Below, piece by piece: positions 4,233-32,529 of a stretch of 33,013 bases of DNA; position 1 is the first letter of the stretch, and each line of letters starts with the position of its first letter. The notes below the pieces were generated by a model, which ran no database searches, was not told the DNA's origin, and saw only the letters and a program-made list of their open reading frames with translations. A program made the position numbers and the translations under genes. Where the stretch lies: positions 1 through 33,013 of the IMG/VR virus record IMGVR_UViG_3300031687_000061. The stretch is one strand, 5' to 3'. Source of the stretch: a virus.

Positions 4233-4489
4233 TGAATAACACAGTTTTTGACAAGGAAAAAGCATCACTTTACTCTGCTGTGTTTAATAATCCAGATGGA
4301 AGAAAAGTAGTTGATGATTTAATTAATTTCGTTGGTTACTTCGGGGAAGGTTTTGCAACAGACCCTTATTCTACTAGTTACAACTGCGGTCAAAGAAGAG
4401 TTGTTACCAGGATCTTGAATCTAGTAGGAATGATCCATGCGGTTGATATGGTTAATGAACTAAAAGAAAGGCAAATGATTGATGAATGA
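4232..4489 (+). CDS. Bbp19-like phage protein
   Basis: This 85-residue protein starts at GTG (4232) with AGAGGAAGG a few bases upstream. It has the two-part signature of the Bbp19 family of small podovirus proteins: FNNPDGRKVVDDLINF near the N terminus and DPYSTSYNCGQRRVVTRIL in the second half. The family is named from a Bordetella phage and sits between portal and scaffold genes; its function is unknown. It overlaps the portal stop by one base and the scaffold gene by 8 bases, indicating tight coupling in the head-assembly operon. Confidence 0.8.
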   Translation: MNNTVFDKEKASLYSAVFNNPDGRKVVDDLINFVGYFGEGFATDPYSTSYNCGQRRVVTRILNLVGMIHAVDMVNELKERQMIDE

Positions 4490-5312
4490 GGAAACAGCCG
4501 AAAGCAACGAAGACGGCGAAGTAACAGAAGTTGAATCTGCGCCTACTCCATCTTTTTTGGATGGAATAGATTCTCAATTCAGAGAAGACCCTTCTGTATC
4601 CAAGTTCAATAATGTAAACGATCTTGTTAAGGAACACGTTAATTTACAATCGATGCTTGGGCGCAAAGGCGTCATTGTTCCCAATGCTGAAGATTCTCCA
4701 GAGACTTGGAACAAATACAAATCAGAAATGGGGATTCCTGAAAACCAAGAGGGTTATGAAGTCCCTCCTGATCAAAGCAATGACGTATTTCAAAGACTTG
4801 CAGAAGCATCTTTTAATGCAAATTTAAGTTCAGATCAATACGACAAAATAGTTAATTCTTTTTCGTCCTGGCAAGAATCAGCAGACGAAAATTTATTTAA
4901 AGAAGCAGAGCTAACTACAGAAGAAAATATTTCTGGTTTAAGAAAAGAATGGGGACGATCCTTTGAGGCAAAGACCAATATTGGTGCTTCTGCTTTAAAT
5001 AAATTGACTGAAGGCAACCCTGACACCTTGGCGTCAATAGAGCTTTCAAACGGAACGCAATTAGGAAACGAACCTGCTTTCATTAAAATGATGGCAGAAA
5101 TTGGAAATTCTTTTCAGGAAAAAGGTTTGCTAGAAGGAACAAATACTAATTACGGTGCAATGAGCCCAGAAGAAGCCAACGCAAAGCTTTCTCAGATTAT
5201 GTCTGATCCAGAAAAAGCAGCGATCTTGTTTAGCCAAGAATTTCATCCTTCCAAACAAGAGCTTGTCAAAGAAAGAGAAAGATTGCTATCATTTGCATAT
5301 CCTGATAATTAA
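4482..5312 (+). CDS. Scaffolding (capsid assembly) protein
   Basis: This 276-residue acidic, helical protein lies directly before the major capsid gene. Residues 20-60 carry a pattern common to podovirus scaffolds: FLDGIDSQFREDPSVSKF followed by NVNDLVKEHVNLQSMLGRKG. The rest is charged with coiled-coil tendency and a basic C-terminal end (KQELVKERERL). Scaffolds guide capsid subunits into a procapsid and then leave. ATG at 4482 is taken as the start; a TTG at 4479 directly precedes it and has slightly better spacing from AAGG (4468-4471). Confidence 0.85.
   Translation: MNEETAESNEDGEVTEVESAPTPSFLDGIDSQFREDPSVSKFNNVNDLVKEHVNLQSMLGRKGVIVPNAEDSPETWNKYKSEMGIPENQEGYEVPPDQSNDVFQRLAEASFNANLSSDQYDKIVNSFSSWQESADENLFKEAELTTEENISGLRKEWGRSFEAKTNIGASALNKLTEGNPDTLASIELSNGTQLGNEPAFIKMMAEIGNSFQEKGLLEGTNTNYGAMSPEEANAKLSQIMSDPEKAAILFSQEFHPSKQELVKERERLLSFAYPDN
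5283..5309 (+). promoter_or_regulatory. Weak candidate promoter before the capsid leader
   Basis: TTGCTA (5283-5288) and GATAAT (5304-5309) resemble -35 and -10 boxes but have a short 15-base spacer. If active, transcription would start near 5316, just before the structured leader. The match is marginal, and readthrough from the upstream operon is an equally good explanation of capsid transcription. Confidence 0.25.
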
Positions 5313-5321
5313 TGCAATCTT

Positions 5322-5450
5322 TAGGATATCGGGTAGCTTTTACGAGTCCGATGCTTGGGTAAAGAGCCCTGCCACAGAGGCGTAAATCTGTAGGGAAAGG
5401 GTCCGATTGCGGGCAGCCCCATCCTGTTAAACTCTAAGTAAAACAGGAGG
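5322..5450 (+). promoter_or_regulatory. Structured 5' leader of the major capsid gene, possible translational switch
   Basis: This 143-base gap holds several complementary segments. A closing stem pairs AGGAT (5323-5327) with ATCCT (5421-5425). ATCGG (5328-5332) can pair with either copy of CCGAT (5348-5352 or 5403-5407). CCCT (5367-5370) plus ACAGA (5374-5378) pair with TCTGT plus AGGG (5387-5395). GGG (5411-5413) pairs with CCC. Competing with the closing stem, TCCTGTT (5422-5428) pairs with AACAGGA (5442-5448), which masks most of the ribosome binding site AGGAGG (5445-5450). The pairing is read from the sequence; regulation is inferred. I do not recognise a known riboswitch class. Confidence 0.55.
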
Positions 5451-5455
5451 TAGCT

Positions 5456-6370
5456 ATGTCTACCCAGATTACAACTTCCTTTATTCAGGGATTTAAGCAG
5501 GGCATTGATATCCTTTCGCAACAGAAGGGTTCTAAGCTCCAGAACACCGTTCGTAATGAAATGCAGTCTTCCAAGCAGGACCATTACGACCAGATTGGTT
5601 CGACCGCTGTTGTGCAGCGAACGAGCCGACACGGCGATACGCCAATTGTCAACACGCCCCATTCGAGACGAAACGTCACGCTCAATGATTACGAGTGGGC
5701 GGATCTGATTGACCGTCAGGATCGTCTTCGACTGCTAAACGATCCAGGCAACGCTTACTCGACGAATGCTGCATATGCGATGGGACGCAAGAAGGATGAA
5801 CTTATCCTTGATGCTTTCACGAAGACGCAGACGACGGGTGAAACGGGCTCAGGAAGCGCTGGCGCAGTCAATGTTGCCTTTGGGTCGGCGAGTGGCTCGG
5901 ACGATGGTCCGATTACGGTTGAAAAGCTGATTACGGCAAGAACTTATCTTATGGCTGAAGATACCAGCGATGAAGATATGTTTTGTTGTTTAACTGCTTA
6001 TCAGATTGCTCAGCTTCTCGACGACAATCGAATCAGCAGCTCTGACTTCAATACCGTCAAGGCGCTTGTTGCTGGACAGATTGACACCTATTTAGGGTTT
6101 AAGTTTATCCAAATTGCACAGTCTGTTAATCCAAATACAGATGGTGCCGCTGATGGTGCCGCGGACAGCAATCGTCCTGTTTTCTTCTGGAAGAAGAGCG
6201 GGATCGTTCTTTCTACTGGAGTTGGCGAAGCAGGCACTTCTGCTCGAATTACTGAACGTGCGGACAAGAGCTACTCGACGCAGATTTATTACTCTGCTTC
6301 GTTTGGTTCGGCCCGAATGGAAGAAGCTAAGCTAACGATTGGTTATGCGGACGATAGTGGTCCAGCGTAA
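5456..6370 (+). CDS. Major capsid protein
   Basis: This 304-residue protein follows the scaffold gene and has a strong ribosome binding site (AGGAGG, five bases before ATG). It resembles the podovirus phage-capsid family, which is expected to adopt the HK97 fold. Typical parts are FIQGFKQGIDILSQQ near the N terminus, RRNVTLNDYEWADLIDRQD (residues 64-82), which matches the family's spine region, and a Gly/Ser-rich loop (about 125-145). Hundreds of copies form the head shell. Its DNA is visibly richer in G+C, with many CGA/CGT and AAG codons, than its neighbours, which fits high expression. It is flanked by a structured leader and a terminator. Confidence 0.88.
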   Translation: MSTQITTSFIQGFKQGIDILSQQKGSKLQNTVRNEMQSSKQDHYDQIGSTAVVQRTSRHGDTPIVNTPHSRRNVTLNDYEWADLIDRQDRLRLLNDPGNAYSTNAAYAMGRKKDELILDAFTKTQTTGETGSGSAGAVNVAFGSASGSDDGPITVEKLITARTYLMAEDTSDEDMFCCLTAYQIAQLLDDNRISSSDFNTVKALVAGQIDTYLGFKFIQIAQSVNPNTDGAADGAADSNRPVFFWKKSGIVLSTGVGEAGTSARITERADKSYSTQIYYSASFGSARMEEAKLTIGYADDSGPA

Positions 6371-6389
6371 TTAATAATTAAACGAGATT

Positions 6390-6430
6390 GAGTTCCCCTA
6401 GAGCAATGTAGTTCTAGGGGAACTCCTTTT
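6390..6430 (+). terminator. Intrinsic terminator after the major capsid gene
   Basis: A perfect 13-bp stem GAGTTCCCCTAGA (6390-6402) pairs with TCTAGGGGAACTC (6413-6425) across a 10-base loop, followed by CTTTT. It lies 19 bases after the capsid stop and should limit readthrough into the next gene. Confidence 0.9.
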
Positions 6431-6436
6431 CACATT

Positions 6437-6462
6437 TCTAGCGCGGTGTCGTGCTAGAGGAG
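6437..6462 (+). promoter_or_regulatory. Hairpin overlapping the ribosome binding site of the next gene
   Basis: TCTAGC (6437-6442) pairs with GCTAGA (6453-6458). The stem takes in the first bases of the Shine-Dalgarno run AGAGGAG (6456-6462) that serves ATG 6471. It could damp translation or protect the 5' end of a processed message. The pairing is seen directly; the effect is inferred. Confidence 0.45.
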
Positions 6463-6470
6463 AAATGAAA

Positions 6471-7016
6471 ATGGCTGTTGTTTATCAGTATTCTAGTCTT
6501 CTTACGGATGGTGCTCAGAATGGCACTGCAAACTTAACTCCAAACACGCAGTTCAGAGCATCTGTTGGCGTAAGTCACGCCAGAATGCGGCTAAAGTATG
6601 GTACTTGTCACATTCCTTTAGATGACGAATCCGCAGGCGAAGACCTTTTGTCTCTTGCTATGTTTGGAAAGAATGATCGAATTTTCAGAATCGACCTTGG
6701 TACTGGAGCTGATCTTTCTAGTGGCAATAACCTAGACATTGAAATTGGTATTTACAATGTTAATGAAGCTGGAACTATTGGCTCACTCGTAGGTAGTAAA
6801 AACAGCCTTGCAGATATTGACGCTGCGGCTGAAGTTACTTTTGGGTCTGCTGACCATACAGTTGCTGCTGCTCGTGGCATTGAGTTGTGGTCTGTTGCTG
6901 GTTTGAGTACTGCTTCTTCTGGTGGCAATTTTATTGTTGCTGCCACTAATGAATCTGGTGATGTTACAACGGCTGGCACGCTTACGTTCCAGTTCCAGTA
7001 CACCGCTGGCGACTGA
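6471..7016 (+). CDS. Probable structural (head decoration-like) protein, unknown
   Basis: This 181-residue protein is Gly/Ser/Ala/Thr-rich and predicted to be mostly beta-strand. It has its own ribosome binding site (AGAGGAG, eight bases before ATG 6471); an ATG at 6465 is too close to that site. It sits alone between two strong terminators directly after the major capsid gene, the usual position and format of an abundant decoration or head protein. No recognised domain or signal peptide is visible; the role is inferred from position and composition. Confidence 0.75.
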   Translation: MAVVYQYSSLLTDGAQNGTANLTPNTQFRASVGVSHARMRLKYGTCHIPLDDESAGEDLLSLAMFGKNDRIFRIDLGTGADLSSGNNLDIEIGIYNVNEAGTIGSLVGSKNSLADIDAAAEVTFGSADHTVAAARGIELWSVAGLSTASSGGNFIVAATNESGDVTTAGTLTFQFQYTAGD

Positions 7017-31898: not shown

Positions 31899-31975
31899 TG
31901 GTCGGCCCACCGGGACTTGAACCCGGAACCGCACGCTTATAAGACGTGTGCTCTAACCAGTTGAGCTATGGGCCA
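31899..31975 (-). tRNA. tRNA-Ile (anticodon UAU)
   Basis: A full cloverleaf is visible. The acceptor TGGCCCA pairs with TGGGCCG (U-G at the tip). The D stem is GCTC/GAGC and the anticodon stem CACGT/GCGTG with loop CTTATAA. The T arm is CCGGG-TTCAAGT-CCCGG, and CCA is encoded. Anticodon UAU reads AUA, a codon that most bacteria read with a lysidine-modified CAU tRNA. Length is 77 bases including CCA. Confidence 0.93.
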
Positions 31976-31993: not shown

Positions 31994-32070
31994 TGGTGCA
32001 CCCGGCAGGACTCGAACCTACGACCTGCCGCTTAGAAGGCGGCTGCTCTATCCTGCTGAGCTACGGGTGC
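31994..32070 (-). tRNA. tRNA-Arg (anticodon UCU)
   Basis: The cloverleaf has acceptor GCACCCG/CGGGTGC, D stem GCTC/GAGC, anticodon stem GCCGC/GCGGC with loop CTTCTAA and T arm GTAGG-TTCGAGT-CCTGC, with encoded CCA. Anticodon UCU reads AGA, which is frequent in the genes here (for example the ejection proteins) and often rare in hosts. Confidence 0.95.
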
Positions 32071-32452: not shown

Positions 32453-32529
32453 TGGTAGGGATGGTGGGACTCGAACCCACACCTGTAGAGATTTTAAGTC
32501 TCTTGCCTCTGCCGTTGGGCTACATCCCC
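32453..32529 (-). tRNA. tRNA with UAA anticodon (Leu, UUA), short variable loop
   Basis: The cloverleaf has acceptor GGGGATG/CATCCCT, anticodon stem AGAGA/TCTCT with loop CTTAAAA, and T arm GTGGG-TTCGAGT-CCCAC, with encoded CCA. The anticodon reads UUA (Leu). The variable loop is only six bases (ACAGGT), whereas bacterial tRNA-Leu normally has a long variable arm, and the D stem has three good pairs. Confidence 0.88.

Follow-up and report, generated by a model that had tools for sequence, protein, structure and literature searches.

The coat-protein operator of the RNA phages MS2 and R17 is a single hairpin with a bulged A and an ANYA loop, and it represses the replicase gene. The scaffolding protein of P22 autoregulates post-transcriptionally by acting on the scaffold gene, a system in which, to our knowledge, no such RNA element is known. 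Ribosomal-protein autoregulatory leaders are structured, are bound by a product of their operon and mimic rRNA sites, while the guanidine-II (mini-ykkC) riboswitch is a tandem pair of similar small hairpins located before a gene, with conserved terminal loops. The put sites of the HK022 kind stand at the start of early transcripts. Phages of the HTVC010P type infect SAR11, which is among the most abundant marine bacteria.

As far as the open-access literature searched goes (including PMC6487183, PMC9004378, PMC12753301 and PMC10504331), no RNA in the capsid leader of HTVC010P-type phages is described, and the authors of PMC10504331 report that they could not identify 'ribonucleotide switches' in Skadi-1. 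The twin-hairpin structure before the capsid gene is real and, within the limits of these searches, has no earlier description; what it does we infer.

The window, meaning the whole stretch of DNA analysed, is a 33,013-base viral record whose ORFs match terminase, head-tail adaptor, protease and major head protein families. The nearest solved structures in the PDB for the capsid ORF include T7 gp10 and other phage capsids, and its closest named relatives are those of HTVC010P-type pelagiphages, with identity of at most 45%; the phage is an HTVC010P-like marine phage. Relatives of the upstream ORF are annotated as capsid assembly, scaffolding or protease. Between the stop of this ORF (5312) and the capsid start (5456) there are 143 nt, within and around which the following features were located.

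4479 to 5312, + strand: upstream ORF (277 aa), matching phrog_3742 and phrog_458 (protease)
5327 to 5353, + strand: h1, hairpin with internal loop GG-GTAG / T-CC, folding at -7 kcal/mol
5357 to 5369, + strand: ha, 4-bp hairpin GGGT/GCCC between h1 and h2, from the leader alignment
5374 to 5391, + strand: hm, hairpin ACAGA-GGCGTAAA-TCTGT between h1 and h2, from the leader alignment
5399 to 5419, + strand: h2, mirror of h1, with internal loop T-CC / GG-GCAG
5422 to 5448, + strand: Shine-Dalgarno masking hairpin TCCTGTT/AACAGGA, named by the first-pass annotation and local to the window's clade
5445 to 5450, + strand: Shine-Dalgarno AGGAGG of the capsid gene, read from the sequence
5449 to 5464, + strand: start-codon hairpin GGTAG/CTACC with the ATG in its loop, from folding (arms 5449-5453 and 5460-5464, the 3' arm being coding)
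5456 to 6370, + strand: major capsid protein gene (304 aa), phrog_3437 and Pfam PF19821, with T7-like capsid relatives in the PDB

Directly 3' of the capsid gene (6390-6425) lies a perfect inverted repeat of 13 bp, GAGTTCCCCTAGA / TCTAGGGGAACTC, enclosing a loop of 10 nt and followed by CTTTTC, which looks like a transcription terminator or processing site. A hairpin TCTAGC/GCTAGA is found a little further on (about 6437-6464), against AGAGGAG, the ribosome site of the gene that follows, which starts at 6465.

Both h1 and h2 carry the same asymmetric internal loop, 5'-GG-RYAR-3' opposite 5'-Y-CC-3', and the order of its strands is inverted between them: h1 reads GG-RYAR-stem-loop-stem-Y-CC, and h2 reads Y-CC-stem-loop-stem-GG-RYAR. 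In h1, the outer stem pairs 5327-5332 with 5348-5353 (the first pair being T.G) and the inner one 5337-5339 with 5344-5346 around a terminal loop at 5340-5343, with RYAR at 5333-5336 on the 5' arm and Y at 5347. In h2, the stems are 5399-5401/5417-5419 and 5403-5405/5410-5412, the terminal loop is 5406-5409, Y is 5402 and RYAR occupies 5413-5416 on the 3' arm. Two such hairpins are present, or three in some relatives, and in most leaders the 3' end of h2 is roughly 30-45 nt upstream of the start codon.

Leaders were gathered through the capsid protein alone, from 96 loci (L002-L097), dropping those with no capsid start (L003, L015, L018) or with too little upstream sequence (L046, L047); the 79 that remained distinct were separated by exact identity only, so that relatives count many times. 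By a strict rule, these 79 leaders contain 59 h1 and 35 h2 matches, against 0.4 and 0.5 in 20 dinucleotide-shuffle sets; per leader, h1 is present in 56, h2 in 35 and both in 30. Elsewhere, the strict rule matched once on the leader reverse strand and 17 times in 316,545 bases outside leaders. Among 32 purine/pyrimidine classes of 4x1 loops, RYRR/Y is the only enriched one (94 matches, the next class having 7). A relaxed rule recovered h1 in 55, h2 in 54, either in 70 and both in 39 of the 79 leaders (1.8 h1, 1.6 h2 and 0.2 both in shuffles), and a broader scan of 90 leaders, run with no shuffled control, found h1 in 82, h2 in 59 and both in 56, some of these h2 (L053, L056) looking wrong. The whole record of the window has 4 strict matches on the + strand, 2 of them being those of the leader, and 2 on the - strand, where about 1.3 per strand are expected; ct3Et533 has h1 in its capsid leader and three further strict matches, one of which overlaps that h1 (1.5 expected per strand). 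As in a protein-binding operator, the motif recurs with constrained unpaired letters and variable stems, and its position is in the leader of the capsid gene and not elsewhere.

Covariation was evaluated in a non-circular way, by selecting hairpins on one stem and testing the other, which gave 12 pair positions. Nine of them are paired at 0.86-0.98, against 0.40-0.60 with shuffled partners, and h2 base pairs 1 (0.81 vs 0.65) and 3 (0.78 vs 0.42) lie above all 500 shuffles, while the outer pair 3 of h1 fails (0.44 vs 0.40, equalled in 136 of 500 shuffles). Stem pairs outside the selection thus co-vary at 11 of 12 positions, where relatedness is uncorrected and the shuffle count is not to be read as a probability. 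Most tested positions show three to six standard pair types, a spread for which a single ancestral helix cannot account. Since the hairpins in two of the alignments (A4 and A5) were picked for pairing, their paired percentages are biased and the one-stem-selected test is the fairer one.

The unpaired letters also vary together. In 108 hairpins, the last R combines with Y as G/T in 67, A/C in 29, A/T in 12 and G/C in none, the pattern expected if G.U and A.C contacts can replace each other. One ACAG/C loop turned up under the relaxed rule, and in L021 and L030 both hairpins have changed their third loop letter, an A, to T. Within leaders, the Y letters of h1 and h2 are T,T in 24, C,T in 24, C,C in 4 and T,C in 4 (56 leaders). 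As the loop class often differs between h1 and h2 of the same leader, the two sites are generally not evolving in step. Taken across the leaders, these comparisons of sequence show that both hairpins exist as base-paired structures, that their loop letters are constrained and that the element accompanies this capsid gene.

For h2, 34 hairpins went into a covariance model (R1) from which the window's clade was left out. When 76,746 bases, comprising the window, five members of its clade and nine further loci, were searched with R1, the only matches at E <=1 were the six h2 of the clade (E 0.0016-0.012; window h2 at 0.0061). Over three whole records (109,619 bases), the window h2 was the best match (E 0.0087), being recognised by a model built without its own clade. 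The corresponding h1 model (R2), built from 19 hairpins of one length with the clade left out, is too narrow: it finds the h1 of L002 and L005 (E 0.042) and that of HTVC010P, a training member, and misses the window h1 (at E up to 10 in one run and up to 1 in another), which satisfies the strict rule. In Rfam 15 at the gathering score, the window matched only three tRNAs, far from the leader and on the - strand near the record end (31902-31975, 31997-32070 and 32456-32529). At E up to 10, the 5200-5560 region gave one chance snoRNA match outside the leader, and no family was matched in 20 related loci. The stretch GGGAA...GCGGGCAGCCCC had looked cobalamin-like by eye, a resemblance that the Rfam search ruled out.

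Three hairpin patterns (A and B of h1 types, C of h2 type) were run over 2.9 million viral contigs, and 181 of the 194 viral places found are just before this capsid gene, counting these loop types only. In 91 of 93 stretches with pattern A, the capsid gene starts 108-117 nt downstream on the same strand; the exceptions (L163 and L191) are GC-rich DNA with no capsid gene, the match being inside listed open reading frames. Pattern B precedes the capsid gene in 31 of 33 stretches (L260 and L264 being counted by reading the gene start) and pattern C in 59 of 68 (L322 by reading), the other nine being inside longer ORFs without h1 beside them. Just before the capsid start in L260 and L264 there is a second h2-like hairpin that includes part of the ribosome binding site (AACCCTCTGAT..AAGGATAATT). 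Pattern A matched 25 times in 84,980 genomes of bacteria and archaea, never with this capsid gene and never with an h2 behind it; all 25 matches are within open frames of at least 80 codons and look like chance.

Among 15 named records, the strict motif is absent in 13, and the whole genome of HTVC010P has no match by the strict rule. By eye, HTVC010P, Skadi-4, Greip, HTVC204P and Lederberg have a deviant h2 together with an h1 whose loop is ACAA/C, AAAA/C or ATAA/C. The general form of this cultured pelagiphage h1 is TAAG-ACAA-TTC..GAA-C-CTTA, with AAAA in Skadi-4 and ATAA in HTVC204P, and the broader scan also finds it in HTVC010P, Skadi-4, Greip and Lederberg and not in HTVC204P. Pelagiphages, HTVC010P among them, have a small ORF after the scaffold gene and before the capsid gene that h1 overlaps; it is annotated at 927-1103 in L098, with similar ORFs in L104, L105, L106, L111 and L112, and is absent from the window. 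The leader of Baldr (L099) has two h2-type hairpins and no recognised h1, an apparent rearrangement of the element. The leaders of Vibrio 1.179.O, 237E40-1, Yersinia YeP5 and E. coli vB_EcoM_APEC contain no element by strict search, by eye or by the models; their capsids are only 25-27% identical to that of the window, and R2 scores weakly (E 0.26) at one place within the capsid gene of APEC.

A hairpin of h2 type (e.g. GCTCCAG..CTGGACAAGC) was also seen in the first ~60 nt of the scaffold gene in 9 of the 69 loci with a scaffold start (L026, L027, L028, L029, L032, L050, L051, L054 and L059), with varying loop letters and a conserved peptide. It may be a coding coincidence or a second site; as a second site it was set aside, being in only 9 of 69 genes and in lineages that share much the same peptide.

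The first-pass annotation of this locus had described the leader as a switch, in which a closing stem and a hairpin masking the Shine-Dalgarno compete and a duplicated CCGAT offers a second pair of alternatives. The pieces are all present in a leader of 143 nt: AGGAT at 5323-5327 facing ATCCT at 5421-5425, CCGAT at 5348-5352 and 5403-5407, and the mask arms TCCTGTT (5422-5428) and AACAGGA (5442-5448), which cover the AGGA of the AGGAGG. A structured, conserved leader directly before the capsid gene is also confirmed, with h1 and h2, which that annotation had left unnamed, as the conserved structure. When the named helices were counted in an alignment of six leaders (window, L002, L004, L005, L006 and L007), the closing stem kept 5, 3, 4, 3, 3 and 2 of its 5 pairs, and the CCGAT alternative was complete in the window only, with 3 of 5 pairs in the other five; the CCGAT duplication is better explained as the second strand (T-CC, facing GG-RYAR) of the motif present in both hairpins. 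The mask has 7 of 7 pairs with identical letters in the window, L004 and L006, and is broken in L002 and L005 (4 of 7); in L007, part of the Shine-Dalgarno is instead covered by a hairpin unlike the mask. The compensatory changes anticipated in both stems are therefore missing from the closing stem and reduced to at most one differing version (L007) in the mask, whereas h1 and h2 show them.

Folding of the whole leader is uninformative as a test, since the 171-nt fold is not beyond chance (z -0.78, with 46 of 200 shuffles folding as well). Taken as one region, the Shine-Dalgarno and start-codon hairpins do fold beyond chance (z -2.67, 3 of 200), and the mask region out-folds its shuffles in L006 also. 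Over 76 leaders, the accessibility of the Shine-Dalgarno equals that of shuffled controls (0.34 vs 0.33; 0.39 vs 0.39 in a second run, with 8 of 76 at p<=0.05), and the mask is not family-wide; in single leaders, accessibility as low was reached in 0 of 40 shuffles for L004, L006 and L023 and in 3 of 40 for the window. Masking belongs to a few leaders and not to the family, and no conserved, mutually exclusive pairing hiding the ribosome site, as in a translational riboswitch or thermosensor, was found in these leaders. Since the closing stem and the CCGAT alternative are not conserved, and neither the mask nor a lowered accessibility is found family-wide, the switch is at best a local trait.

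Other parts of the leader are less widely shared. The ha hairpin shows compensatory changes (GGGT/GCCC, GAGC/GCTT, AAGC/GCTT) in five of the six leaders and keeps 2 of 4 pairs in L007 in this alignment. The hm hairpin has 5 of 5 pairs in four of them and 4 of 5 in two, but as a family-wide part this TAAA-loop hairpin is too weak outside the clade (20 of 79 leaders, vs 9.4 in shuffles). A start-codon hairpin, unmentioned in the first-pass annotation, can be read as GGTAG or GGTGG with CTACC in the window, L002, L004, L005 and L006. Pairing of the h2 RYAG strand with the start codon, which appeared in folds of L002, L004 and L005, is broken by GCAG in the window and L006.

We suggest, with a probability of about 0.45, that the leader element is a cis-regulator of capsid expression recognised by a protein, without naming a particular one. 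This agrees with one of the three options of the first-pass annotation, the protein-binding autoregulatory site, which we judge the most likely of them; the switch logic of the other two, riboswitch and thermosensor, is unsupported in relatives. The repeated internal loop, set in freely varying stems and terminal loops, would be the recognition site of an RNA-binding protein; with a sensor of metabolites or a factor from the host, one would expect the element ahead of further genes as well. The binder would most likely be phage-encoded, and our guess is that it could be the capsid protein or its assembly partner. Binding may set capsid output post-transcriptionally, up or down, through translation or stability of the message. 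The usual 30S footprint extends from about -20 to +15, and h2 lies upstream of it, so simple occlusion is unlikely and any effect of binding would be indirect; in the window's clade, the opening of the downstream Shine-Dalgarno and start-codon hairpins could be altered by a factor bound to h2. Counting against this reading are the loop class that often differs between the two hairpins of a leader, the accessibility of the Shine-Dalgarno, which is not reduced in the family as a whole, and the lack of overlap between h2 and the ribosome site. In a more specific version, which we consider doubtful, the HK97-fold capsid protein of this abundant ocean phage group would bind its own leader at the twin GG-RYAR/Y-CC sites, and free subunits would hold back, or else stabilise, their own production until they are consumed in assembly. 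Capsid residues H59, H69 and R71 show little or no variation across 84 element-bearing phages and do not occur in the Vibrio, Yersinia, E. coli and methylophage relatives; R58 is equally constant in the 84, but vB_EcoM_APEC and YeP5 also have it, while Vibrio 1.179.O, 237E40-1 and methylophage MEP301 lack it. We do not take these residues as evidence for the binder, as capsid assembly or plain ancestry would fit equally well.

The main rivals to protein recognition are mRNA stability and processing, under which the hairpins would shield the capsid transcript or direct a nuclease of the host, and no regulatory ligand would be involved. In favour are the large demand for capsid and the place of the hairpins, which precede the ribosome site and in most leaders lie beyond the 30S footprint; yet a purely protective stem would not need constant RYAR/Y letters, and stems of ~6-10 bp are short for RNase III. 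A promoter-like site is seen in the window at 5263-5292 (two in 5150-6500, 1.6 being expected), but no general promoter was found just before h1 (10 of 56 leaders, vs 8.5 expected), so that h1 is not established as the 5' end of the message, and we consider this explanation unlikely. A protein-free contact with the RNA machinery, such as a put-like antiterminator or a ribosome standby site, appears improbable: there are two hairpins, and the phage probably depends on the host RNA polymerase like its cultured relative Skadi-1, which lacks its own (PMC10504331), but the element is mid-operon and before a single gene.

Just as improbable to us is a small-molecule riboswitch with a pocket formed by the two loops and the middle hairpins. 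The compact conserved fold and constrained unpaired letters would suit it, and a glutamine riboswitch is used elsewhere by marine phages (PMC9004378); against it, the element precedes one phage gene only, the 25 bacterial pattern A matches are all in ORFs and without h2, the middle region is unconserved across the family and there is no conserved expression platform. The translational switch of closing stem against mask, with the CCGAT pair as a second switch, draws on the mask in the window, L004 and L006 and on the folding of its region beyond shuffles in the window and L006, but with the closing stem and CCGAT alternative unconserved and the mask absent in L002 and L005 and unenriched in 76 leaders, we regard it as very improbable. 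Hardly likely at all is a DNA-level site, a cruciform or a DNA-protein site coincidentally in the leader: wobble pairs are few (7 of 237 paired cells in hairpin alignment A4), as it would predict, but the orientation is constantly that of the sense strand of the gene, the position is confined to the leader, and variation between G.U and A.C in the loop is in keeping with RNA.

An element with a defined four-letter loop offers a testable post-transcriptional control point for HTVC010P-type phages, and the twin-hairpin leader a short RNA bait for finding the binding partner. If it is true that the capsid or scaffold protein of a dsDNA phage binds here, this would give a molecular mechanism for the old question of head-protein balance.

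Compared with known systems, the glutamine riboswitch of the marine phage Melnitz (PMC9004378) is also an RNA regulator, with family and gene unrelated to ours. In guanidine-II it is the terminal loops that are conserved, whereas here the conserved part is the internal loop, which is mirrored, and Rfam gave no such match in the window or in 20 relatives. With ribosomal-protein leaders the proposed element would share a structured leader recognised by a product of the operon, although no cellular counterpart was found here. With P22 it would share, as proposed, post-transcriptional control of the ratio of head proteins in a podophage. Unlike the MS2/R17 operator, the present element belongs to dsDNA phages, is known from sequence, has mirrored pairs and a 4x1 internal loop, and stands before the capsid gene itself; like it, it is a small phage hairpin with specific unpaired letters in its stem near the ribosome site, for which recognition by a protein is the model that we favour.
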